Shown one piece after another: positions 13,260-29,375 of a DNA stretch of 64,000 bases. The number at the start of each line of letters is the position of its first letter. Position 1 is the first letter of the stretch. The translations under genes and the position numbers were made by a program. The DNA comes from Photorhabdus noenieputensis (GTDB lineage: Bacteria > Pseudomonadota > Gammaproteobacteria > Enterobacterales > Enterobacteriaceae), in contig NZ_RCWC01000002.1 in assembly GCF_018448935.1 (NCBI RefSeq), forward strand, positions 233,740 through 297,739, in the 5' to 3' direction. The notes beneath the pieces were generated by a model. The model saw nothing but the letters and a program-made list of their open reading frames with translations. It ran no database searches and was not told the origin of the DNA.

Positions 13260-14335
13260 TGTTTGGTGTATTGGATCGTTATATCGGGCGGACTATTCTA
13301 CAGACTATTCTGATGACGCTGTTTATGCTGGTATCACTTTCCGGCATTATTAAGTTTGTTGAGCAGTTAAGAAAAGTGGGGCAGGGGGAATATACCACTA
13401 TTTCCGCGGGTCTTTATGCTTTGTTAAGCGTACCGAAAGATATTCAGATATTCTTCCCGATGGCAGCTTTGCTTGGCGCTTTATTGGGGCTTGGTACGCT
13501 GGCAACCCGTAGTGAATTGGTGGTCATGCAGGCTTCTGGATTTACCCGTATGCAGATTGCTGGCTCAGTGATGAAAACGGCTATTCCGTTGGTGATCCTG
13601 ACGATGGTTATCGGTGAATGGGTCGCGCCACAAGGTGAGCAGATGGCGCGTAATTACCGGGCTCAGAAAATGCTTGGTGGTTCTCTGGTTTCAACAACTA
13701 AAGGTATGTGGGCGAAAGACGGGGACGATTTTATCTACATCCAGCGGATTGTGAGTGATACAGAGATTAAAGGCGTCAATATCTACCATTTTAGTGATGA
13801 TAAAAAACTACTCTCTGTAAAATATGCCACCAGTGCGGTTTATGATGAGGATAGCGACCTGTGGAAACTTTCTCAGGTGGAAGAATCCGATCTGACAGAC
13901 AGCAAAAAAATTACTGGTTCACAACGTATTTCTGCTGACTGGAAAATTCTCCTGACGCCAGAACAGTTGAATGTGGTAGCGCTTGAGCCTGAAGCACTTT
14001 CCATTAGTGGCCTATATCAGTACATCAAATACCTTAAGCAGAGTGAGCAGGAATCAGGACGTTATCAACTGAATATGTGGAAAAAGATATTTGCCCCACT
14101 TTCAGTTGCAGTCATGATGTTGATGGCACTCTCATTCATCTTCGGGCCACTGCGTAGCGTGCCGATGGGAGTGAGGATAGTAACAGGGATAACCTTTGGC
14201 TTCCTATTTTATGTACTTAATGAGATCTTTGGCCCACTGAGCCTGGTGTACAACATGCCAGCGGTTTTGGCGGCACTATTGCCAAGCTTATTGTTCCTTA
14301 TTGTGAGTATTTACTTACTCCTTAAGAGACAGTAG
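13259..14335 (+). CDS. lptG: LPS export permease LptG
   Basis: A 358-residue partner of LptF with the same six-span architecture and a central periplasmic domain. It starts MFGVLDRYIGRTILQTI. The ATG overlaps the lptF stop codon. The LptB ATPase is not encoded here, which is usual. Confidence 0.95.
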   Translation: MFGVLDRYIGRTILQTILMTLFMLVSLSGIIKFVEQLRKVGQGEYTTISAGLYALLSVPKDIQIFFPMAALLGALLGLGTLATRSELVVMQASGFTRMQIAGSVMKTAIPLVILTMVIGEWVAPQGEQMARNYRAQKMLGGSLVSTTKGMWAKDGDDFIYIQRIVSDTEIKGVNIYHFSDDKKLLSVKYATSAVYDEDSDLWKLSQVEESDLTDSKKITGSQRISADWKILLTPEQLNVVALEPEALSISGLYQYIKYLKQSEQESGRYQLNMWKKIFAPLSVAVMMLMALSFIFGPLRSVPMGVRIVTGITFGFLFYVLNEIFGPLSLVYNMPAVLAALLPSLLFLIVSIYLLLKRQ

Positions 14336-16130: not shown

Positions 16131-16215
16131 GCCGAAGTGGCGAAATCGGTAGACGCAGTTGATTCAAAATCAACCGCCTTCGGGTGTGCCGGTTCGAGTC
16201 CGGCCTTCGGCACCA
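16131..16215 (+). tRNA. leuX: tRNA-Leu(CAA)
   Basis: An 85-nt class II tRNA starting GCCGAAGTGGCGAAA and ending GCCTTCGGCACCA with encoded CCA. The anticodon arm is GTTGA-TTCAAAA-TCAAC, giving anticodon CAA, followed by a long variable arm and the TTCGAGTC T-loop. It corresponds to E. coli leuX, a classic integration site for islands and P4-like elements. An integrase gene follows 165 bp downstream. Confidence 0.95.
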
Positions 16216-16379
16216 TTCGTTAGTTTACTAACGTCTACCTAAGTCTAAAAATTACCTAAAAATCCCAATAAATCAACAAGCTTCGTTATTTCGGCGTTTG
16301 TTATAGTCTGTTGCAATCAATATGTAGCAAGGGGAATAATCCGGGGCACCTACACTTCGATTTTAAATATGCCCCAAAA

Positions 16380-17627
16380 ATGAAACTAAATGCCCGACAA
16401 ATCGAGGCTGAGAAACCCAAAGAGAAATCCTATAAATTAGCGGATGGCGCTGGCTTATATCTCGAAATCACGCCGCGCGGTTCTAAATACTGGCGCATGA
16501 AGTACCACCGCCCCACCGATAGAAAAGAAGATCGGCTGGCCTTTGGTGTTTACCCTATTGTCTCATTAGCTGATGCACGCGCTAAACGGGACGAAGCCAA
16601 AAAATTGCTTGCTCAAGGTATTGATCCCAAAGCAGAGAAAAAAGATGCACAAGCCGAATCAAAGGGTGCATATACCTTTGAACGGATCGCCTGTGAATGG
16701 CACGCCAGCAATAAGCGGTGGAGCGAAGACCATCGAGACCGAATTATGCGAGGTTTCGAACAGTACATTTTCCCCTATATTGGTACTCTCGATATTCGCA
16801 CTTTGCGAACCAGCCAACTGTTAGCACCGATCCAATCCGTTGATATTGATGGTAAACACGATATAGCACAGAGATTACAACAACGTGTAGCTGCCATCAT
16901 GCGTTATGCCGTCCAAAATGATATTCTTGAATATAGTCCTGCCAATGATATGGCGGGCACTCTCACCATAGTAAAACCCAAACATCACCCTGCATTGCCT
17001 CATGAACGCCTACCTGAATTTTTGGCTCGTCTTTCCTGCTACCGTAGGCGCTTGCTTACTAAAATCGCGGTAGAACTGACTTTATTAACGTTTGTTCGTT
17101 CCAGTGAAATGAGATTCGCCCGTTGGGAAGAAATCGATCTTGAAAGGGCTGTTTGGCATATACCAGCGACACGAAAACCCATTGATGGTGTTAAGCATTC
17201 TCAACGTGGTGTGAAAATGAAAACTGAACATATTGTACCGTTGAGCCGTCAGGCGGTTTCGCTTATCGAAACCTTACACAGCCTGAGCGGAGAGTGTGAG
17301 GTAATGTTCCCCGGTGACCACGATCCAAAAAAAGTGATGAGTGAAAACACCGTTAATAATGCGTTGCGAGCGATGGGCTATGACACCAAAACAGAAGGTT
17401 GCGGGCACGGATTCCGCACGATGGCACGCGGTGCAATGGGTGAATCTGGCCTGTGGAGTGATGACGCTATCGAGCGCCAGTTAAGCCATATCGAAAGAAA
17501 CAATGTCCGGGCGGCGTATATTCACACATCCAAACATTTGGATGAACGGCGGCTGATGGTGCAGTGGTGGGCGGATTATTTGGATGCGAACAAGGAGCAT
17601 AATGTTTATGAATTCTCATCAGGATAG
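16380..17627 (+). CDS. P4-type tyrosine integrase
   Basis: A 415-residue site-specific recombinase with an N-terminal arm-binding domain (LADGAGLYLEITPRGSKYW), a core-binding domain and a C-terminal catalytic domain. Catalytic residues are visible: Arg in LTFVRSSEMRFARWEEID, His-x-x-Arg in GHGFRTMARG, and the Tyr in NNVRAAYIHTSKHLDERR. I start it at 16380 (MKLNARQIEAEKPKEK) because the 23 upstream residues do not fit the family; there is no clear Shine-Dalgarno. It sits immediately downstream of tRNA-Leu in the standard island arrangement and appears intact, so the island might still be excisable if a second att site exists. Confidence 0.92.
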   Translation: MKLNARQIEAEKPKEKSYKLADGAGLYLEITPRGSKYWRMKYHRPTDRKEDRLAFGVYPIVSLADARAKRDEAKKLLAQGIDPKAEKKDAQAESKGAYTFERIACEWHASNKRWSEDHRDRIMRGFEQYIFPYIGTLDIRTLRTSQLLAPIQSVDIDGKHDIAQRLQQRVAAIMRYAVQNDILEYSPANDMAGTLTIVKPKHHPALPHERLPEFLARLSCYRRRLLTKIAVELTLLTFVRSSEMRFARWEEIDLERAVWHIPATRKPIDGVKHSQRGVKMKTEHIVPLSRQAVSLIETLHSLSGECEVMFPGDHDPKKVMSENTVNNALRAMGYDTKTEGCGHGFRTMARGAMGESGLWSDDAIERQLSHIERNNVRAAYIHTSKHLDERRLMVQWWADYLDANKEHNVYEFSSG

Positions 17628-17789: not shown

Positions 17790-18794
17790 ATGGCTGGTGG
17801 TGAAACAGCAGCAATCCAACGGGTAGCTAACCTAATAACACAAAAAATATTTACAGTCTTCAAATGGAAAAGGGCACTACGAGAAGACATGAATTGGCCT
17901 TGTGAAACCGAAGCGCACGGAAAAGATACACATCCAAGCGATGTAGTATTTTACTATACGAATCCCTATGAAGAAGAAGTTGTATATCTAAACACGGACT
18001 TAAAAAGTTATGGTAAAAACTCAATCAAAAAAGGTACTGTTGAGTCAGCTTTAAGCTCTCTCTCACTAGCTGTTGAATGTGCTAATTCTAACGAAGAATG
18101 GCGTAAAAAATATCTTGAAGACGATTCATTAGGCTTTGATGTAAGAGGATTGCTTTTTCTTTACAATCATGATCAACTTTACGATTCTGATTTTTATAAT
18201 GTAATAATGAAGCAAATAGATATGTCCAAATTAATGTTACCAAATGGGCAAAAAATATATTTACTGGATCCTTTTAAAATATATGACATAATTAATATTG
18301 CGTTTGATATTAAATATCTAACTGGCGAGGGAAACCTACCTTACTCAGATAAATACTATTTCTACTATCCTGATATGTCATTAACTCGATTAAAGCATCC
18401 ACTAACCAAATCAACACCTGCTACAATTGAGGCTCTCACATCGCCATATCTCATTATAAAACATGAAGAATTTAATTATGGCGATGAACATAGTGATGAG
18501 GGGTATGTTATATATTATAATCAAGAAGGTAGCAGTGTTGATGAGTTCGTTTATTTCTTTGATATGCTGTCCAACTTCCAGATATTAACTGAAAATAAAA
18601 ATATAAAAATCAGATTAATTCATACGCATCCTCACTACGAATCACCACAGAATTTTATTAATGCAAAAAAGAAATATAGTTCTTGCTGGTTGCTTGGTGA
18701 ACAAAAGCGTTTTTTTGATAAAATTACAATGGAAATTAGTGAAAAAACTATTGTTAATTTTAATCTAGAAGAAATTGGAATGGGAATTAGATAA
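17790..18794 (+). CDS. PD-(D/E)xK-like nuclease-related protein, first gene of a three-gene island module
   Basis: A 334-residue protein I cannot name. Near the N-terminus an amphipathic helix (residues 5-26) is followed by PSDVVFYY (Asp51) and VVYLNTDLKSYG (Asp70-x-Lys72), the spacing and strand pattern of a PD-(D/E)xK nuclease core. A conserved-looking HTHPHYES lies near 274. AAGGAG precedes the ATG. The stop codon overlaps the start of the next gene, so the two are coupled. Base composition is far more AT-rich than the adjacent integrase, a sign of separate origin. A role in phage or plasmid defence is inferred from location and nuclease-like motif. Confidence 0.6.
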   Translation: MAGGETAAIQRVANLITQKIFTVFKWKRALREDMNWPCETEAHGKDTHPSDVVFYYTNPYEEEVVYLNTDLKSYGKNSIKKGTVESALSSLSLAVECANSNEEWRKKYLEDDSLGFDVRGLLFLYNHDQLYDSDFYNVIMKQIDMSKLMLPNGQKIYLLDPFKIYDIINIAFDIKYLTGEGNLPYSDKYYFYYPDMSLTRLKHPLTKSTPATIEALTSPYLIIKHEEFNYGDEHSDEGYVIYYNQEGSSVDEFVYFFDMLSNFQILTENKNIKIRLIHTHPHYESPQNFINAKKKYSSCWLLGEQKRFFDKITMEISEKTIVNFNLEEIGMGIR

Positions 18795-19907
18795 TGAAAG
18801 GTAATAACAATCTATACTTTGCTACTGAAAAAAATATTTATGATGCATTGCACCATAAACGTATTACTACCGCTATGTTACAAGATATTCTTTTGAGAAA
18901 AGGAATTATCGTTTCTGAACATCTTGATAAAGAGGAATTAATTGAAGAAGTATGTAAATTACCTCATGGATTTATTGATTTGCAGGAAATAAAAAAGAAA
19001 GTACAAACATACGATCCTAAAGAAAGCGTTACTAAAGTATCTCTTACCACCTCAACGAATCAGCAGGAAATAAAGGATGCTATAAATAAAATGAAAGATC
19101 TTTATCCAAAGACTAAATCAGAAGTATTTAAAGTAACTACAAAGAAAGATGGTGGACTCTCTGTTGAATTACATTATGATGATATCGATTTATCACGTAC
19201 AGCACTCAGACAAATTGATAAAAAAAGTGTAAAGCTTGAATTCTCTATAAGTGAAGAAAAAATAGATATAAGAATGCCACAAAATTCAAAATCAAAAGAA
19301 TTAGTAAAATTAATAGAGACACAACTGGCAGGAATTAAGAATGTAGAAATTCCTCGATTTGAAATAAGTTTAGAAGTAGTGACAAGCCCTAACTTACGTA
19401 GCCAGTTTTTTCATGATTTAATGCATGGGCTTGAAGGTTACGAAGTTGAAGATGTGAATCCAAGAAGTTAATAGATTTATAAATAAAATTGCTAATAATG
19501 ATGAGGACGATGATGATGAAAAAATTGATGCAGGATATGTTAGAAAAGCTGTTTTAAAAGGAGAGTCGGTTAACTCATCTTCAATTTTTTCTGATCTTCA
19601 CAACAAAGGTTACTATATAAGTAAGGTTTCATGGGCTAGCATTCCCTCGTCTGGTAATGGAGATAAAATTATATTGGAGGCATTTTTTAAAAATTCAGAA
19701 TCATGTATGGACTTTGCTTATAATATAAAAGGTATAAACAATTTTAACAAAGGTAAATTTAATGTAACAACCAGAAGTGTTAATGAAATAGAAAAGAAAC
19801 AGATTGGAAAATTAATTGAAAATTCTGCTGAAAAAGCATACAATTCAATAAAAAATATTATGTCTGGAGGAAGCGAAAATGAAAAAAATAAAGTGGATGT
19901 TGCTTAA
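18794..19907 (+). pseudogene. second gene of the three-gene island module, split by a +1 frameshift
   Basis: Overlaps the preceding stop. The first frame encodes 225 residues (18794-19471), Lys/Glu-rich with beta-strand patterning (GGLSVELHYDDIDLSRTALRQI), ending VEDVNPRS. A different frame, open from just after a stop at 19455-19457 to 19907, continues with plausible coding sequence (QEVNRFINKIANND, SIFSDLHNKGYYISKVSW) but has no start codon or ribosome-binding site. Deleting one base near 19456 joins them into about 370 residues. It is therefore either a frameshift mutation, a sequencing error or a programmed shift. I see no slippery heptamer, which argues against programmed shifting. Function unknown. 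Confidence 0.6.
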
Positions 19908-20565
19908 TGTTTCCTTATCAATTACAGACATGGTTGATAAATTGAAATCATCTTCTTATACTGATGAAAAAGGAAAAGGTTTTATTTTTAATAAGGTTCG
20001 ACATAATGAATTGGTTGGTAGATTTGTTGAAAAATTAACATTCGAAGAAGTTATTCCATCATTGTATGGAGAGGCAACAACTTTTGAACGAGTTGAATAC
20101 AGAATTGTAGAATTCTATATTAATGAAAATACTCTTCCTGTGATTGCTATAATTAATCCACCAAGAACTTTAAAACCATTTGCACTAAATTTAGTGAAAA
20201 TTTTAGGTTTAGGGGTGAGTTTGGATGAGATTAATATTGAACCTATGGTTTGGGTTGAATCAATATCAAAGTTAACGCCTCTAGAGTTAACTCAAATCGA
20301 ATTATCTCAAATAAAGATTAATGAATGCGCATTAGCTAAAATGCAGGTCTCAAGCAGTAAAGACTTACGTTCATATTATGAAAAGACATTTTCAGACAAA
20401 AGTACATCAAGAGTAGATAAAGTTCACCTTTTTATGATAAGTCCTAATTATCCTGGGAAAGTAAAAATATCTCGAACAGGATTAGTGGTGATAGACACTA
20501 AACACGAAAAGGATATGACAGATTTACTTTTTAGATCATTATTAGAAACATATGTGAAAATATAG
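19879..20565 (+). CDS. third gene of the three-gene island module, unknown function
   Basis: A 228-residue protein beginning MKKIKWMLLNVSLSITDMVD. GGAGG sits 8 bp before the ATG and supports this start, which overlaps the end of the preceding frame by 29 bp. It has no membrane segment and no motif I recognise. Features include PPRTLKPFALNLVKILGLG in the middle and an acidic/basic mixed C-terminus. The overlap chain with the two upstream genes indicates one transcript and joint function. Confidence 0.6.
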   Translation: MKKIKWMLLNVSLSITDMVDKLKSSSYTDEKGKGFIFNKVRHNELVGRFVEKLTFEEVIPSLYGEATTFERVEYRIVEFYINENTLPVIAIINPPRTLKPFALNLVKILGLGVSLDEINIEPMVWVESISKLTPLELTQIELSQIKINECALAKMQVSSSKDLRSYYEKTFSDKSTSRVDKVHLFMISPNYPGKVKISRTGLVVIDTKHEKDMTDLLFRSLLETYVKI

Positions 20566-20789: not shown

Positions 20790-21779
20790 ACCCGAATTCT
20801 GCTTAAGCCATCATTGAAAAATCTTCTTCTGAGTAGAAAACTTTCAGTGATAGTTTCTTCAATTTAAGGCAGTAAGCAATCAATCCACCTAAAACGCACA
20901 ACATAAAACCTTTTATACTTCGGTGGCGGGAATGCTCTATTTGAGAAATAGTTTTTAATTGCCCATTAATCGTTTCAATGATAAAACGCTTTGATAACAT
21001 TATCTTATCCCACTCAGCTTGCAGGTGAGCTTTCATATTTCGGCGCTTTTGGGTGATGAAAGTGAGCCCCGCTTTGGCTAAGTCGTCAGCCAATTCCTGA
21101 CTGAGATAACCTTTATCGCCGTACAGAGAACCCGTTAATTCTGTTGTTAATTCGCGAACAGGCTCCCGATCATCTACATTACCGGCAGTGACTTTAAGCG
21201 CCAAAATTTCCCCCTGATGATTGACAACCAGGTGTAATTTGAAACCGTAAAACCACCCCATTGAATTTTTTCCGCGCCTGGCTATCCCGGCAAAGACCTT
21301 ATGCCGAGGAATGCGAATGTTATGGCAGACACTCAAACGGGTGGAATTAATAAAAGCAATGCCTGTGGGTTTTCCTTTTAATTGCGTCAGATAGCTGCAT
21401 AGTGGCACCAAAACGGAAGGGGCCACACTGACAAAACGGGGATAGCTGAGTAAGGTGGGAAAATCGTTATGGTGATATTTCCAAATATGTTCTCAATAAA
21501 AATGTTTAAAATCCCGGTAATGCGACCGATGAAAAAGGATCAAAATGGCCATGATTTCACTGGGAGACATGTGACCTTGTCGGCGACGTAAACGATGCCC
21601 GCTATCGAGACAAAATTGTTCCCATTGAGGGATGAAAAAACGGCAAAAATCATCGACATCACAGAAAATTTCAACTAAGTTGTCCATAGCTTGTTCCCCC
21701 TCGGAGCTGGTTTTGAGTCTGCACCAAAACTTTGCTCCTGGAACAGGCTTCTCGTCAATTTCTTATCCAGAATTCGGGT
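20790..21779 (-). mobile_element. IS982-family insertion sequence (990 bp)
   Basis: Terminal inverted repeats ACCCGAATTCTG..TAAG match at 16 of 18 positions (20790-20807 and 21762-21779). They enclose one transposase frame on the minus strand and are flanked by TAATTA duplications. The transposase carries a premature stop, so this copy is probably not autonomous. It separates the three-gene module from the decayed integrase. Confidence 0.85.
20803..21687 (-). pseudogene. IS982-type transposase interrupted by an in-frame TGA
   Basis: The N-terminal part (MDNLVEIFCDVDDFCRFFIP to FKHFY) stops at TGA 21493-21495. The same frame then continues with EHIWKYHHNDFPTLLSYPRF and on to the C-terminal part with catalytic-domain signatures: INSTRLSVCHN, GWFYGFKLHLVVNHQG, LYGDKGYLS and an RFIIETINGQLK block. 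No base is lost or gained, so a single nonsense change (a Leu TTA would fit) inactivated it. DDE chemistry is known for the family. The stop codon lies inside the left inverted repeat. Confidence 0.85.
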
Positions 21780-22396: not shown

Positions 22397-23797
22397 TTAA
22401 ACAACTTTTTGATTTTTCTTTTCTATTTGATAACGAACAGGACGACCGAGTTTTTTCACTTGTCCCTCATCAATAGCTCGTTTTAACCATTCCTTCAATT
22501 GAGATTTATGCAGACCAGTGTTCTCGATAAGGGTATCAAGTGTAATAGGGCTTACTGTCAATCGATGGAGCTCAGTAATAAACAATTGATAAAAATCCAC
22601 AGCCTGCATTACAGTTTTTTCTGCTTCTGCTTCTGCTTCTGCTTCTGCTTCTGCTTCTGCTTCTGCTTCTGCTTCTGCTTCTGCTTCTGCTTCTGCTTCG
22701 TGATCGATTGAACCCTGGATTTCATCTTGTTCGATTGAATGAGTAGCAATTGTTCGATTTTCTGCTACCTCTAGATCAAATTCCGATGCAGGTTTCGCAA
22801 ATAATTCTGACTGTGCTGGCATGAAAAATAGATCAACCTGTTCAGCTTCTTTCTGCGAAGCAGTAGAGTTTTCTACGGAGAACAAATCAGAAACCTTAAG
22901 GTTGTGAACATCTGCCTCACACCAATGCCCCCCCTTCGCAACTAAATCAGTATTTGCCGCGCTACTGTCATTCGTTGGTTTTACCCATAATGGCACCCAG
23001 CACTTTTTCAGGTTTTCTTCTGCCCCGCTTAGTGTGCCGCCTTTTTTCCCCGAGTGAATTACCAGCGAGCTGTCTGCCAAGCAATAGATATATTTGTTTC
23101 GGGCCATAGCGTTTCCAGTGCTGAAGCCAGCCTCGGGGTAAAAGGGCGAAATCAGCATTACGCTGCCATTCATCAAACCTTTGCGCCATTTTGCGCTGGT
23201 AGCGGCTTTCAGTAGGCTATCTGCCAGTACCCCAATAACGTTGCCACCACCAAGCATTGCTCCCACCATAGCCGTCTCATCCACACCGCGGGCACCACCG
23301 GATACAATCGCAATGCCCTCTGATGCCGCTCTTGAACCGACCAGCTCGGTATAAGACAAGTCCGCATTGTTGGCCTCACGTGAGCCAATAACCGCTAAAC
23401 CACCAACATTCAGTAAGGCTTTATTACCGCAACCAAATAGCACAGGCGGTGAGTCGGTTTTCAATTGCTGTTTTAAGCGCTTGGGATATTCAGGGTCAGA
23501 GCGGGTAACTACCCAAAGACCTGCTCGATACCATTTTTCAACGGCCAATGCCAGGCTGTGACCACGATTCAGTAACTGTATAATTCGTTCTGTGCTGATG
23601 CGAGAATCCTGCCAGTTGCTTAATATTGATTTAGGCTCAGATACCAACAAATCTGCTGGTGTTGTGGATTTTTCTTTCAGCCATAACGCAAACCTACCCC
23701 ATTCAGCATTAGTGAGGGGTTTGATATCATCACTGCTCGCCTTGGAAAAATAACTAGTGAGCAATAATGTGGCTTGTGCTGTTGGCGATAAATTCAT
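22397..23797 (-). CDS. DprA-like protein with Glu-Ala repeat linker and winged-helix C-terminus
   Basis: 466 residues. The Rossmann core of the DprA/Smf family spans about 90-310: AVIGSREANN (137), IVSGGARGVDETAM (164), GFSTGNAMARNKYI (224) and IHSGKKGGTLSGAEENL (247). DprA binds single-stranded DNA and loads RecA in transformation. This is not the housekeeping copy, since it is longer and lies in an island. A (Glu-Ala)n stretch at about 367-393 comes from a 13-unit hexanucleotide repeat. A winged-helix-like domain (TLDTLIENTGLHKSQLKEWL) ends the protein. The ATG overlaps the stop of the RecQ-like gene (ATGA), so the two are coupled. Role in defence is inferred. Confidence 0.82.
   Translation of the reverse strand: MNLSPTAQATLLLTSYFSKASSDDIKPLTNAEWGRFALWLKEKSTTPADLLVSEPKSILSNWQDSRISTERIIQLLNRGHSLALAVEKWYRAGLWVVTRSDPEYPKRLKQQLKTDSPPVLFGCGNKALLNVGGLAVIGSREANNADLSYTELVGSRAASEGIAIVSGGARGVDETAMVGAMLGGGNVIGVLADSLLKAATSAKWRKGLMNGSVMLISPFYPEAGFSTGNAMARNKYIYCLADSSLVIHSGKKGGTLSGAEENLKKCWVPLWVKPTNDSSAANTDLVAKGGHWCEADVHNLKVSDLFSVENSTASQKEAEQVDLFFMPAQSELFAKPASEFDLEVAENRTIATHSIEQDEIQGSIDHEAEAEAEAEAEAEAEAEAEAEAEAEAEKTVMQAVDFYQLFITELHRLTVSPITLDTLIENTGLHKSQLKEWLKRAIDEGQVKKLGRPVRYQIEKKNQKVV
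22621..22698. repeat. hexanucleotide microsatellite (CTGCTT)13
   Basis: Thirteen perfect CTGCTT units inside the dprA-like gene encode alternating Glu-Ala. Because the unit is six bases, slippage would lengthen or shorten the linker without breaking the frame. Confidence 0.95.
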
Positions 23798-25896
23798 GAG
23801 TCTTTCACCGAAGAAGAGGCAAGTGCTGCGGGATACACAATACCACTACCCGCTTGCTGTAACAAAGCTGCAATAACGGTAAGAGTCCAACCAGAGTCAA
23901 CGATGTCGTCGATAAGGAGTACTGGTTGATTTTGTACAATTTGTATTATCTCAAAAACACCGTCAAGGTTGTGGCATTGATGAAAACTATTTTGCTGTTC
24001 CTTTTGGGGCTGGTTATCTTGAACTTTTGCTACCGCATCAACAAATGTCAGGTTCAACCTTTGTGCTAGCCGACGTGCAAATGCAGGGACTAAATGCGGA
24101 TGTCTTAAGGAAGGAACACAACATACCCAAGTTGGACTAGGATGAGGCTGCCAACGCTGTGAGATCATTTCAGCCATAGCATCAACTAGTTCATCAGAAA
24201 AATAACCCGAATGTTTATTTTCAATAACAATTTTCCCCCAACCAGCATCTCCCCATCGAGAGAGAACCCTACCTGGCTGAGCAACTAAGCAACCTAACTG
24301 CCGTGGAAAACAATATGTAGGAAAGGCTCGATTAGAAGTTGCTACCTGTTTTCTTGGTTGGATGAGCATTTCGGCATGTTTAAGAAAAGTGCCTGCCTGA
24401 TGAACTAACACTGGATCAATAGTCTGATTAACAATAGGCTGGCCGATGCATGACGAGCATTTGCCACAAGGTGTAGGGTCGTGATCATCCAGTACACGGC
24501 GCAAGAAAGTCATCTTACATCCGGTATCTGACAGATAAGCCTGTACTTCAGCCCACTCTTGCTTACGCTGGTTGGTGAGGTGAGCGATACGGGTGCGATC
24601 CATCGCATAAGGCACGGGTATTCTGCGCCATAAGTTTCCGACTTTAATCACAGGAGCGGTGTTCTCTGTACTTAGCAGTTTTAATACCTTTTCAATCTGG
24701 CCATAGCGTAGATTGGTTTGCTCTTCAATGCTACGAAGCGATAAACCATCACTATTAGCTAGTACTTGCAAAATTTCGTTTACCTGAGTTTCTGATGGGA
24801 ATGCCGAATTCCTGAAAAACTCATGAATATCTTGATCTTCTATACCAGATATCAACACACCAATAGCGTTGTCGATACCACGCCCTGCGCGGCCGACCTG
24901 CTGGTAGTAAGCCACGATAGAACCTGGTGCTTGATAGTGAATCACAAAGCTTAAATCCGGCTTGTCGTACCCCATACCCAATGCAGTAGTTGCCACCAGC
25001 ACCTTAAGTTGATTGGTTAGCAATAACTCTTCAAGATATTGTCGGTAATCGTTACTGTTTTCAAAACCATCAGCCGCAATACTGCTATGGTAGGCTCTGG
25101 CATTTATGCCATTGACGTTCAACCAATTTGCTACCTGTTCGGCATCACGCACTGTTAAGGTGTACACAATGCCAGTACCATGCAAGGTGGGAATCACTTG
25201 CGCCAACCAAGCTAGGCGAGAGGATTGATCAGGTAGAACCATCGCTTGTAGCGAGAGGCTTTCACGGATCAGTGGACCACGCTGGATCTGGATATTACCC
25301 AGTTGTGTTTGGATATCAGCCACCACGCGGTTATTGGCAGTGGCCGTTGTGCCTAATACCGGTGTATTAGGTGGCAACTGGCGCAAAATATTTACTATAC
25401 GCCGATAGTCTGGGCGGAAGTCATGGCCCCAGTCGGAAATGCAGTGGGCTTCGTCGATCACCATCAGAGCAATACGGTCAGCAATAGGATGAAGCACGGT
25501 TTCAATGAAGTTATCGTTGGCGAGCCGCTCAGGAGAAATCAGCAGGCAATCTATTTGATTATTTATAATCCTTTGTGTCACCGTCTGCCAGTCCGCTGTA
25601 TTGGTGGAATTCATAGTCTCGGCTACGATGTGCAGGCGCTGGGCGGACTCAATCTGGTTACGCATCAGGGCCAGCAAAGGAGAAACAATAATCGTCGGCC
25701 CCATGCCGCGATCACGGAAAATTTTGGTGCTGATAAAGTAAACTGAGCTTTTACCCCAGCCAGTACGCTGTACTACCAACAGTTTCTGCCGTTGGTTAAC
25801 CAAAGCATCAATAGCCTCCCACTGACCATCGCGAAACTCAGCATTTGGATTGGCTAGCGCAGTTTGTAGTAGTTGTTGGGCCTGAGCTCGATTCAT
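23794..25896 (-). CDS. RecQ-family helicase fused to a phosphoribosyltransferase domain
   Basis: 700 residues from an ATG with AAGGAG upstream (a TTG 21 bp earlier is less likely). RecQ motifs in order: FRDGQWEAI (motif 0, about 21), TGWGKS (Walker A, 46), DEAHCISDWGHDFRPDY (148), GTTATAN (about 188) and YYQQVGRAGRG (motif VI, about 335). A four-Cys zinc site follows (TGCKM...CGKCSSC, 455-480). The C-terminal about 180 residues form a PRTase-like domain, with VLLIDDIVDSGWTL matching the PRPP loop of ComFC-type and orotate PRTases. The HRDC domain of housekeeping RecQ is absent. It is the middle gene of a helicase-RecQ/PRTase-DprA set. Confidence 0.85.
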   Translation of the reverse strand: MNRAQAQQLLQTALANPNAEFRDGQWEAIDALVNQRQKLLVVQRTGWGKSSVYFISTKIFRDRGMGPTIIVSPLLALMRNQIESAQRLHIVAETMNSTNTADWQTVTQRIINNQIDCLLISPERLANDNFIETVLHPIADRIALMVIDEAHCISDWGHDFRPDYRRIVNILRQLPPNTPVLGTTATANNRVVADIQTQLGNIQIQRGPLIRESLSLQAMVLPDQSSRLAWLAQVIPTLHGTGIVYTLTVRDAEQVANWLNVNGINARAYHSSIAADGFENSNDYRQYLEELLLTNQLKVLVATTALGMGYDKPDLSFVIHYQAPGSIVAYYQQVGRAGRGIDNAIGVLISGIEDQDIHEFFRNSAFPSETQVNEILQVLANSDGLSLRSIEEQTNLRYGQIEKVLKLLSTENTAPVIKVGNLWRRIPVPYAMDRTRIAHLTNQRKQEWAEVQAYLSDTGCKMTFLRRVLDDHDPTPCGKCSSCIGQPIVNQTIDPVLVHQAGTFLKHAEMLIQPRKQVATSNRAFPTYCFPRQLGCLVAQPGRVLSRWGDAGWGKIVIENKHSGYFSDELVDAMAEMISQRWQPHPSPTWVCCVPSLRHPHLVPAFARRLAQRLNLTFVDAVAKVQDNQPQKEQQNSFHQCHNLDGVFEIIQIVQNQPVLLIDDIVDSGWTLTVIAALLQQAGSGIVYPAALASSSVKDS

Positions 25897-26063
25897 TATC
25901 ACTCCTTGTTTATACAATTAGCTCGCCATTCATTGGCTTAGATAACCCTAATCACCTTCAGGTTCATGTTACGAATAATGCAATCTATGAGGCAGTATTA
26001 CCTAACGGCATAAGGACTGTTTACTCATTTCGTTACTCGTTTTTTGATAATTCCACCTTGGGG

Positions 26064-29000
26064 TTATTGTAAATGATGATATGTCCCCACTGGCAACTCC
26101 TTGGCTACATCACGAAACCAAGGCAAACCATGCCATACCGCTGGATCGCCAATTATGAAAATGTGTTTTTTTGCTCGGGTGAGCGCAACGTTTAACAAAT
26201 TAGGCTTGCTGGCAGCCCATTTTGCGCCGCCATCATTATTTTCGTCGCAGCCTAGGACAAAAATGACAATATCGTTTTCTTTGCCCTGAAAAGTATGCAC
26301 TGTACCAATACAATTTTTTTGCCATACGTTGAGTTCTTTTCGTGTCATCAATGGCATAGATTGCCGCCAGGTAGCCAGATCACGCTTTCCTAATAATTCA
26401 CACAATGCTGACTTAACTGCTTTGAACGGTGTAATAACATAAATCGAATGAAGAGAAACATTTGCAACAAGCAGTTGGTCCAATAACTTGAGCAAATCTT
26501 TACCGTGGCTGTCACGATATTGTTTTTCACCTGTCCCTCCAACCGATGCCAGCCAATGGTTTTCCAGAATGTTGTTCACAGGTTGGCAGCGAATCTTGTC
26601 AGCATCAAGCCCATGAATCATGCGGCCATTGTAGGCCATCTTATTAGCCAAACTGAACATTGGTTCAATACAACGACGGTGTACCCACAATGGAATACCT
26701 AGCCAGATCAGGTTGTTCATGACTTCTAATTCACATCCCCAATGATTGACGCGATCAGCAACCTGCTGCACTGAAAGTAATCCCGGATTCCAGTCTTTAG
26801 CCTTTTCATTCAGAGCATCTAGGCAAAGACGTTCAACCAACGGCGGAGGGGTCGTAAATACCGGTTCAATCTGCAAAGGGTCTCCAACAACCAGTACCCG
26901 TTTTGCACGCCAGAGTCCCCCGACAGCTTGTTGTGGAGGTGCCTGGCCGGCTTCATCGATCATTAACCAGCCAAGTTCTTCGCTTCCCACTCCGTGGAAC
27001 ATGCGTCCCATAGATGCGAAAGTTGTGGATAATACGGGCACAAACATAAACAGCGTTTGCCACCAGCGTATAGGCGTGATTTTGGAATGAGGTTGTGCTA
27101 AAAAAGCCGTGAGATTAAATATGAAGTCTCTAAAACGAGATACTCCTAGTGCTTCATAAAGCCAAGCCTGATGAAGTTCCATCGCTGTGATAAATAATGC
27201 GGAACGTTGACGATTTATCTGTGCGTTCTGCCAAAGGGCCGTTCGTTGTAATGTTGCATCAGTGATAGGTTGGTTGATATCTGGCAATGTGATATCGGAA
27301 AACTGCTGCTTCAAAGTTTGTAGAGAACGATGGTCATTCTCCCGTTGTTGGATAATTTTTTCGATATCCTGTTGTAAGGTTCGCTTTTTTTCAGCTATGT
27401 CATTAATTAACTTGCGTTGTTCCGCAACACGCTGGGCTTGTTCGGCTTGCAATCTCATCAGTCTTAATACTTCGTGTTGTGCACACTGCAACGTTTCTTT
27501 ATACACATGCACTCGCTTGCGATTCATCAGACGCATTAGCCATCCTGGTGCATCACTTTCGATAATTTTTTGTTGCTGTTCCGCATGTTGGAGCTGTTTT
27601 CCTAATACATCCTGTTCTGTTTTCACCTGTTCCAGCCTGTTAAGCTGTGTTTCGTACAGTCCTTCTGTTTGCTTCAACTTCAGTGATAACGTGTCGAATG
27701 AATCGTTATGCTGTTTTTCTATCAGATGCACAAACATTTCTAGTTGCTGTTGAAGTTTTTTTGTCTTTTCCAGGCATACGAGGAAACGTTTTTTAGCGGT
27801 GGCGAAAGAGATGGGGTTGTGATAATGCCTCCAGCGCCAAAGACTGAGAAAGTTCTCTTCAGCGGGACGAGAGGCTTCAGTTGGGGTGTCACGTAAAAAA
27901 TGTTCATCAAAAAATAAGCGATCAGAAAATTTAGTCCGGTTTGGTTTGTTGCCCAAAGCAGCGGAAATGATCCCCCAGCATTGTTTCTCTTCCTTCAATG
28001 GACGATAGAGGTGATAGGTTCTAACTTTTCCCTGACTATTTTTATTTTTTTTATGTTCGCGCTTTGGGCGGTTCTCGGCAGCTATCTGGTTTGCGGTTGG
28101 TGCTAAATAGTCAAGCGATTGGAATTCTTCAGACAATGATTTCTTTTGCGGCAATTCTTTTGATATGTTTTCTGCTGCGGCGTTGTTGGATGACGCAATG
28201 ACCATTTCGAAACCAGTGAGCGCATTCACAATAAAACCGGAATTGTCCAGCGTGTCATCAACTTTTTGATAACGCGTAAGTATCTTCGCTCGTTCAACAA
28301 TGTTATGTGCTATTAGATCGCGCAGAAGCGTCGTTTTTCCAGTTCCCGGAGGGCCGTTGACGGAAAGCAGCCCACCGTCAGCGAGCTCTTCTATCGCCGT
28401 ATTAATAGCAAATTGCTGCATTAGCGACATGGCATGTTTGGGATCGGAAGGCCAGCGTCCATGAGGCATCTTCGCTGGATGGAGTTTACTGATGATGGAG
28501 GCAAGCCCGTCTTGTGAATAAAGGTCTGGATTCCTGGGGACACTATGATGAGAAAGATATGCTCTGAGAGCTTTGCATCTATCTCCTCGTTTTAGGGCCG
28601 TAATAGCGTATTCAATGTCCTCAAAGAAAAAACTATTTAAAATAGGAAGTGCAAAGGTTTTATCATTAGCGCTGACTTCTTCTTCAATTTCATCGCTATT
28701 TTCTTGTGATGCTTCTGTATCGTCGCCTTTTCCCTCCATCCAGTCTATTTGTAAAGCATATTGCCATTGGGGTTCAAAATCTGCCCAATTCACCAGATGT
28801 GTCGTCAACAGTGTTAAAATATCATTTGCTTTTAAAATACCGGGGCCATTTTCTCGTATTGGCTTCAGAGAGACGCTAAAGTTGCCGAGGGTATTTTTAA
28901 GATGCTCGCAACTGGCTGAAAATACCTTCGTATTAAGCTGCTCAAAACGTTCATCACGCAGGTGCCCTAAAGCCCAGGGAAGAGAACTCACTGAAAATTT

Positions 29001-29375
29001 ATCCAGAGCAGGGTTTCCTTCCGCGCCTAGTGGAATTTTGGCAAAGCAGGTTGTTCCTTCTTTATCCAGCCGTTGCTCAAATTCTTCTGCATAATACCCT
29101 TCATCTGGACCAAACACCGCTTGGCTGATCGCGTTAGCGATAGCTTTATCAAACAAACCGACGTACAAGCTGTATAAGACTTTTTGATCGGGAATATCAT
29201 GTTGTTGACGGAGTTCTGATGAAAGCCAGGGGAGTGCCTTATCTCCTAGTTGATAGAGTGTTTTAAGCGGAATTAGTAAACTTTTATCTTTTTTTTCAAG
29301 TGCATAAGGTTGGAAGAATTCTATACGTTGCCAGGTACGGAGAATATCATTCGAAAGGGAAGTTGCGGCCATCAT
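26064..29375 (-). CDS. large UPF1/DNA2-like SF1 helicase
   Basis: 1103 residues. About 330 N-terminal residues have no recognised domain (an acidic stretch near 215-240). The helicase core starts with Walker A GPPGTGKTTL (341-350). A long coiled coil rich in Gln/Glu/Lys (about 545-690) is inserted before Walker B MIDEAGQAPPQQ, VVGDPLQIEPV, TVHTFQGKENDIVIF and NVALTRAKKHIFIIGD. This split-core arrangement is known in Dna2/UPF1-like ATPases (AAA_11/AAA_12). It is the first gene of the set; the RecQ/PRTase gene follows after 167 bp on the same strand. Role in the module, probably nucleic-acid unwinding or sensing, is inferred. Confidence 0.85.
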   Translation of the reverse strand: MMAATSLSNDILRTWQRIEFFQPYALEKKDKSLLIPLKTLYQLGDKALPWLSSELRQQHDIPDQKVLYSLYVGLFDKAIANAISQAVFGPDEGYYAEEFEQRLDKEGTTCFAKIPLGAEGNPALDKFSVSSLPWALGHLRDERFEQLNTKVFSASCEHLKNTLGNFSVSLKPIRENGPGILKANDILTLLTTHLVNWADFEPQWQYALQIDWMEGKGDDTEASQENSDEIEEEVSANDKTFALPILNSFFFEDIEYAITALKRGDRCKALRAYLSHHSVPRNPDLYSQDGLASIISKLHPAKMPHGRWPSDPKHAMSLMQQFAINTAIEELADGGLLSVNGPPGTGKTTLLRDLIAHNIVERAKILTRYQKVDDTLDNSGFIVNALTGFEMVIASSNNAAAENISKELPQKKSLSEEFQSLDYLAPTANQIAAENRPKREHKKNKNSQGKVRTYHLYRPLKEEKQCWGIISAALGNKPNRTKFSDRLFFDEHFLRDTPTEASRPAEENFLSLWRWRHYHNPISFATAKKRFLVCLEKTKKLQQQLEMFVHLIEKQHNDSFDTLSLKLKQTEGLYETQLNRLEQVKTEQDVLGKQLQHAEQQQKIIESDAPGWLMRLMNRKRVHVYKETLQCAQHEVLRLMRLQAEQAQRVAEQRKLINDIAEKKRTLQQDIEKIIQQRENDHRSLQTLKQQFSDITLPDINQPITDATLQRTALWQNAQINRQRSALFITAMELHQAWLYEALGVSRFRDFIFNLTAFLAQPHSKITPIRWWQTLFMFVPVLSTTFASMGRMFHGVGSEELGWLMIDEAGQAPPQQAVGGLWRAKRVLVVGDPLQIEPVFTTPPPLVERLCLDALNEKAKDWNPGLLSVQQVADRVNHWGCELEVMNNLIWLGIPLWVHRRCIEPMFSLANKMAYNGRMIHGLDADKIRCQPVNNILENHWLASVGGTGEKQYRDSHGKDLLKLLDQLLVANVSLHSIYVITPFKAVKSALCELLGKRDLATWRQSMPLMTRKELNVWQKNCIGTVHTFQGKENDIVIFVLGCDENNDGGAKWAASKPNLLNVALTRAKKHIFIIGDPAVWHGLPWFRDVAKELPVGTYHHLQ

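Follow-up and report, generated by a model that had tools for sequence, protein, structure and literature searches.

A probable Photorhabdus copy of the PsyrTA (RqlHI) anti-phage pair beside an SF1 helicase gene in a tRNA-Leu-linked island

The window analysed here is a stretch of 64,000 nucleotides from Photorhabdus noenieputensis (positions 233,740 to 297,739 of contig NZ_RCWC01000002.1, assembly GCF_018448935.1), in which a preliminary description had singled out three genes as a candidate undescribed system, viz. those for a superfamily 1 (SF1) helicase, a RecQ-like helicase with a phosphoribosyltransferase (PRTase) domain and a DprA-like protein. The last two are very probably the Photorhabdus copy of PsyrTA (RqlHI), a toxin–antitoxin (TA) anti-phage pair, located in a tRNA-Leu-linked island beside the gene of an independently mobile SF1 helicase. 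What is new here is a further copy of the described PsyrTA together with one uncharacterised helicase, and not an undescribed three-gene machine; novelty had been claimed provided that no described system matched, and for the pair PADLOC gives such a match over nearly the full length.

The middle protein aligns with the PADLOC PsyrT model (PDLC03928) at 1033.5 bits (E = 0), residues 9–706 covering positions 2–688 of 689, and the DprA-like protein with the PsyrA model (PDLC03927) at 576.4 bits (E = 8e-174), residues 1–459 covering positions 1–397 of 398; model matches of 231–1033 bits, the range found in this locus, are not chance. The features read directly from the letters in the preliminary description were borne out, in that three intact open reading frames (ORFs) of 1103, 707 (from a TTG) and 466 amino acids lie on the minus strand with Pfam domains that agree with their naming, the psyrT stop and psyrA start overlap as ATGA, and Pfam lists no HRDC domain in PsyrT at E ≤ 0.01. 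PsyrT contains the motifs GWGKS and DEAH, a Pribosyltran domain (Pfam, 1.4e-8) and a DDIVDSG loop, and, while RecQ_Zn_bind falls below threshold (18.1 bits, cut-off 25), the cysteines of CGKCSSC are nonetheless present. The psyrT ORF as listed occupies 23794–25917; judged by its sequence, an ATG at 25896, giving 700 residues, is a more likely start than the TTG at 25917, because GGAG sits just upstream. Counted from this ATG, the Walker lysine (K56 of the listed ORF) and the DEAH aspartate (D155) become residues 49 and 148, the positions altered in E. coli RqlH as K49A and D148A. The DIVD motif, also mutated in that work, moves from 671–674 to 664–667, one off the published 663. The sequence features expected of PsyrTA were found, i.e. 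a RecQ-like helicase with a PRTase domain joined to its C-terminal end, a DprA-like gene directly downstream, and K49, D148 and DIVD.

PsyrA scores 87 bits on the NCBIfam dprA model (89 bits in a genome-wide search), under the cut-off of 191.15, and a canonical DprA, above that cut-off at 267.5 bits, is encoded on another contig of the same genome. Residues 367–392 of PsyrA form an uninterrupted (EA)13 run of 26 residues. The corresponding Glu-Ala run measures 30, 26 and 22 residues in the other Photorhabdus copies (L006, L008 and L061), and all four psyrA genes are in frame, with lengths divisible by three.

The equivalence of the two names comes from the E. coli work on RqlHI, which names PsyrA as the orthologue of RqlI and reports that RqlH is genotoxic through its PRTase domain unless held back by RqlI (PMC4670107), and PsyrTA is counted among described defence systems in two further papers (PMC10121019, PMC12278908). 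As we propose it, PsyrT would load onto DNA via its RecQ-like helicase, and its PRTase domain would be the harmful part, damaging or modifying DNA or nucleotides, substrates which we infer. PsyrA, a DprA relative, would restrain PsyrT, and would probably also act as the sensor of single-stranded or replicating DNA because of the analogy with the binding of single-stranded DNA by DprA. Phage replication would then disturb PsyrA, the toxin would be freed and the infection aborted; the Photorhabdus copy is presumed to be active in this manner.

A defence role built from competence-like parts had been suggested for the three genes; the role was right in kind, the pair being PsyrTA/RqlHI, but the parallel with ComF and DprA had already been drawn in print for RqlHI (PMC4670107, PMC5512222). 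The same DprA and ComFC-like domains, and the parallel discussed in those two papers, might instead be taken to indicate a competence-derived module for DNA uptake or repair, processing incoming single strands for recombination and not for defence. We regard this as highly improbable, given that canonical DprA is encoded elsewhere in the genome, that the pair matches a toxin–antitoxin model and is patchy (11 of 295 genomes), and that it lies in an integrase-bearing island in the window and, in other loci, inside a type I restriction operon (L069, L089) or beside an hsdS-like fragment (L064).

The treatment of all three genes as one module did not withstand comparison across genomes. A family sample of 295 genomes contained PsyrT in 11 (E ≤ 1e-120) and the helicase in 12 (E ≤ 1e-30), and a class sample of 369 genomes contained PsyrT in seven (E ≤ 1e-100) and the helicase in five (E ≤ 1e-60); the two coincided in one genome of each sample, the window's own, with the proviso that only the best one to three candidates per genome were scored, under these strict limits, and distant copies may be missed. 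Leaving the window's own genome aside, the helicase was accordingly found in 0 of the 10 PsyrT-bearing genomes of the family sample and in 0 of the 6 of the class sample. The overlap expected by chance among the other 294 family genomes is about 0.4, so that its lack does not amount to avoidance and indicates an absence of association, nothing more. In each of the 10 other PsyrT-bearing family genomes PsyrT is followed directly by PsyrA, and two annotated E. coli loci likewise have the two genes side by side.

Seen from the side of the helicase, neither PsyrT nor PsyrA was found in the stretches covered around 14 other helicase loci, nor in eight viral-contig and two plasmid stretches bearing the helicase. 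The 14 loci (L007, L009, L040–L046, L056–L059 and L063) come from 13 genomes, L056 and L063 sharing one; L062 and L009 are one and the same site and enter the count a single time, and L010 (a 26-residue match) and G184, G274 and the second copy in G057 (1.5-kb flanks only) were left out. Flanks are incomplete for L007 (a 9.5-kb contig) and, among PsyrT loci, for L067 and L072 (cut near PsyrT), and the helicase is fragmented in L057 and in L063. Sinorhizobium meliloti CP090106.1 has relatives of both proteins (35.6% and 48.6% identity), some 2.25 million bases apart; the plasmid co-occurrence check covered 40 of 624 helicase-bearing records, and other cases could exist. As a general system the three-gene module is rejected on the 295- and 369-genome samples, and it is kept as a rival within Photorhabdus only.

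In that genus PsyrT occurs in 4 of 12 genomes, the only ones in which the trio was seen, and in all four a helicase 94–100% identical to that of the window lies directly upstream, with gene order and strand identical. Any link between the helicase and PsyrTA may thus be confined to Photorhabdus, where the trio is constant in each PsyrT-bearing genome. Across the four genomes, the ratio of nonsynonymous to synonymous substitution rates (dN/dS) is 0.10–0.31 for the trio genes and 0.06–0.22 for fecA and fecD of the adjoining iron-dicitrate transport (fec) operon, while the synonymous rate (dS) is 0.03–0.06 for the trio against 0.10–0.24 for fecA/fecD in comparison with L006 and L060, and 0.15–0.18 against 0.19–0.25 in comparison with L008. 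The lower dS of the trio in two of the three comparisons, together with the constant gap between helicase and psyrT, argues that the three genes spread, or recombined, as one block, and we read the pattern in the genus as one acquisition followed by joint transmission. The same observations, viz. the shared order and strand in all four genomes, the 167-bp gap of constant length, purifying selection on all three genes and the signs of exchange as a block, are what would be expected if the trio were a three-gene system in Photorhabdus, with the SF1 helicase as a sensor or processing helicase that feeds single strands to PsyrT–PsyrA. We think this quite improbable in view of the PsyrT-bearing genomes of both samples and the 14 helicase loci described above, of the divergent helicase that stands without PsyrT in four other Photorhabdus genomes (best E-values 1.3e-268 to 2.1e-96), and of the restriction of the trio to one genus with a common fec side, which may reflect a single event. 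The support for a functional link between the helicase and PsyrTA consists of shared position and transmission, and nothing further.

Several points weigh against our assignment of the locus to a PsyrTA pair with an independent neighbour. The gap between helicase and psyrT is 167 bp in all four Photorhabdus trio genomes, movement as one block could also come from a functional link, and the purifying selection was gauged by a simple pairwise method only. As regards the pair itself, Russell and Mulvey hold that RqlHI, taken as a TA system, would be a non-canonical one, and they note that RqlH orthologues are present in other taxa without RqlI (PMC4670107). In another study, expressed PsyrTA gave no detectable protection and caused a growth defect, and three phages plated at higher numbers with PsyrTA, which that study attributes to bacterial density (PMC12409345); this outcome fits toxicity of PsyrTA and not broad protection. 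With these points weighed, PsyrTA remains our very probable identification of the pair.

The SF1 helicase has the motifs GPPGTGKTT, DEAGQA, GDPLQI, TVHTFQGKE and NVALTRAK, with a long insert before motif II, and by profile comparison its core is UPF1/SMUBP2/Dna2-like. Profile matches to solved structures comprise UPF1/NAM7, SMUBP-2, Sen1, NFX1-type zinc finger protein 1, an RNA helicase-like protein and Dna2, and cover only the C-terminal part of the core. The roughly 310 residues N-terminal to the core have no Pfam match; this region holds residues that are invariant across 14 family members, the conserved positions being W15, E19-F20-F21 and W134-A135-L136-G137. Its best PADLOC match is to MkoC (231 bits), confined to residues 311–1080, i.e. 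the core, and all 14 family members scanned likewise match MkoC.

The surroundings of the family are mixed. Type I restriction genes adjoin the helicase in 4 of the 14 other loci (L044, L057, L058, L059) and an HNH nuclease gene in three (L007, L040, L056), which makes seven with restriction-type neighbours, the calls for L057, L059, L007 and L056 resting on similarity to a scanned relative. Elsewhere the helicase has efflux genes (L043) or type VI secretion genes (L087) beside it, and no constant partner gene was seen. Some helicases have the HNH gene upstream of them, and a search for a remnant of that gene between the helicase and fecE in the window gave no match. Of 72,556 plasmid records, 624 carry a relative at E ≤ 1e-20, and in 53 of these the match spans 80% of the query or more; Klebsiella accounts for 537 of the 624, with an identity of 27–28% among the matches listed, and 567 are predicted to be conjugative. 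Viral contigs gave no matches to single-protein queries with the helicase or PsyrT, but eight helicase-family loci when queried with the 14-member alignment, and among phage records the helicase was found in four, all partial matches, and PsyrT in none at 1e-50. A side observation concerns L045 (G240), where positions 13975–14097 give a 126-bp match (86.5%) to the tRNA-Leu stretch of the window about 2.5 kb from a divergent family helicase, so that integration sites of this type may serve the family in other places too.

We read the helicase gene as lying outside PsyrTA, as one that is mobile, may serve in defence and was seen to have no fixed partner. That it is a candidate anti-phage gene acting on its own, from an undescribed family with a Mokosh-like core and different ends, is a tentative reading to which we give a little less than an even chance. 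The MkoC matches of all the scanned members (core only in the window protein, where MkoC is the best PADLOC match), the type I restriction and HNH neighbours, the plasmid and viral-contig relatives and the lack of a constant partner speak for it, whereas the efflux and type VI secretion neighbours point to a mobile context that is not purely defensive. The fuller proposal that this is an undescribed mobile single-gene anti-phage family, with its Mokosh-like core and conserved N-terminal region, which was recruited upstream of PsyrTA in Photorhabdus, moves with it as one block and cooperates with it as a defence layer, appears unlikely.

The pair and the helicase gene are set among the features collected in the table below. 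To the left of the trio lie a tRNA-Leu (CAA) gene and a phage-type integrase, which support the description of the region as a tRNA-linked island, and to its right lies the fec operon, in which the fecD and fecE models score above their cut-offs. As a mark of the far boundary of the island, any exact 14-mer of the tRNA region 16131–16240 that recurs elsewhere in the window was sought, and none was found. A promoter scan gave eight sites against 15.0 in shuffled sequences, i.e. fewer, which is no evidence either way, and a near-identity search of the whole stretch against E. coli gave zero matches. An IS982 transposase gene is probably a remnant at the junction between 3HP and PsyrA; DNA 88.6% like it adjoins the helicase of locus L057 (6928–7399).

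Features of the island and its surroundings, with positions counted in the 64,000-nucleotide window
Feature	Position	Strand	Evidence
SF1 helicase, UPF1/Dna2-like, 1103 aa	26064–29375	-	Pfam AAA_12 1.1e-15, AAA_11 6e-10
Gap from helicase stop to psyrT ATG, 167 bp	25897–26063	-	sequence; 92.7–95.8% identity to 3 Photorhabdus relatives
psyrT / rqlH, RecQ-like core, zinc cysteines, C-terminal phosphoribosyltransferase domain	23794–25896	-	PADLOC PsyrT; Pfam DEAD, Helicase_C, Pribosyltran
psyrA / rqlI, DprA-like antitoxin, 466 aa, SLOG/Rossmann core and C-terminal extension	22397–23797	-	PADLOC PsyrA; Pfam DNA_processg_A 2e-40
IS982 transposase, 207 aa, probable remnant	20803–21426	-	NCBIfam model matched only from position 50
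Hp1, Hp2 and Hp3 matches, three adjacent genes	17790–20565	+	PADLOC 8e-145, 4.1e-79, 1.4e-64
Phage-type tyrosine integrase adjoining tRNA-Leu	16311–17627	+	Pfam Arm-DNA-bind_3, Phage_int_M, Phage_integrase
tRNA-Leu (CAA), island anchor	16131–16215	+	ARAGORN

The three genes between the integrase and the transposase match the PADLOC models Hp1–Hp3, the Hp2 match covering positions 4–220 of 359; we take these models to stand for the published 3HP system, and the genes are probably that known system. Three genes without clear domains, protecting against phage P1, are what the literature describes under the name 3HP (PMC9122126). Beyond PsyrA the four Photorhabdus genomes differ (17999–23057 in L006, 18490–21380 in L008, 3980–7349 in L061, and the Hp genes of the window), the cargo comprising Hp1–Hp3, a methyltransferase with an SMC/Lamassu-like ATPase, a C5 methyltransferase with a HATPase-domain protein, and IetAS, and this slot resembles a hotspot for defence genes in which the cargo can be exchanged.

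Some PsyrTA loci elsewhere also deserve mention. In L089 (5732–15811, E. coli strain 2/0) and L069 (5548–15627, G277) the pair sits inside a type I restriction operon, flanked by hsdS and hsdR. Of 5426 E. coli genomes, 53 contain at least 80% of this 4.6-kb hsdS–psyrTA–hsdR stretch, in each case with an identity of no less than 99%. The darTG2 system has been reported in the same hsdS–hsdR slot (PMC12255303), and PsyrTA is not named among the literature matches listed for PsyrTA and hsd. In L072 (8886–10199, G012) a PsyrT of 437 residues has the helicase core without the phosphoribosyltransferase loop or zinc cysteines, PsyrA still following it, which may mean either that the toxic domain was lost naturally or that the assembly is at fault; simple patterns for the PRPP loop and the zinc site are also absent from the full-length PsyrT of L073 (48% identity).

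The known toxin–antitoxin defence pair is thereby extended to a Photorhabdus island, with an adjoining slot whose genes differ among the four genomes compared and are for the most part defence-like. It is also set apart from an uncharacterised helicase family that merits a test of its own, and no new kind of system is established.

Considering known systems, the closest is PsyrTA/RqlHI of Pseudomonas syringae (psyrTA) and extraintestinal pathogenic E. coli (rqlHI), which shares with the Photorhabdus pair the overlapping RecQ-like and DprA-like genes in that order, the RecQ-like core with PRTase, and helicase residues 49 and 148 and the DIVD motif, and from which the Photorhabdus copy differs in being preceded by the SF1 helicase and in the long uninterrupted Glu-Ala run of PsyrA (22–30 residues in four copies). 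MkoC of Mokosh type II resembles the neighbouring helicase in its SF1 core, but the match covers positions 244–946 of 1136 and leaves the last 190 unmatched. MkoC carries a PLD nuclease in its C-terminal region, and Pfam finds no PLD domain in the window helicase at E ≤ 0.01. ShosTA likewise combines a DprA-like partner with a PRTase effector, and PsyrA matches both the ShosA model (85 bits) and the solved ShosA structure 9vzo (E = 1.1e-9), but its score on the PsyrA model is 576 bits. A related DprA and PRTase pair, found in P2-like phages, gives protection against T7 and lambda, its authors citing shosTA, syrTA and rqlHI as support, and differs in that no RecQ helicase is named for it in the part of the paper that describes it (PMC9122126). 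The competence machinery of ComFA, ComFC and DprA is alike in its domain types, whereas in the window the PRTase forms a single protein with a RecQ-type helicase and the canonical DprA is encoded elsewhere; from that DprA equivalog, PsyrA is set apart by its score below the NCBIfam cut-off.

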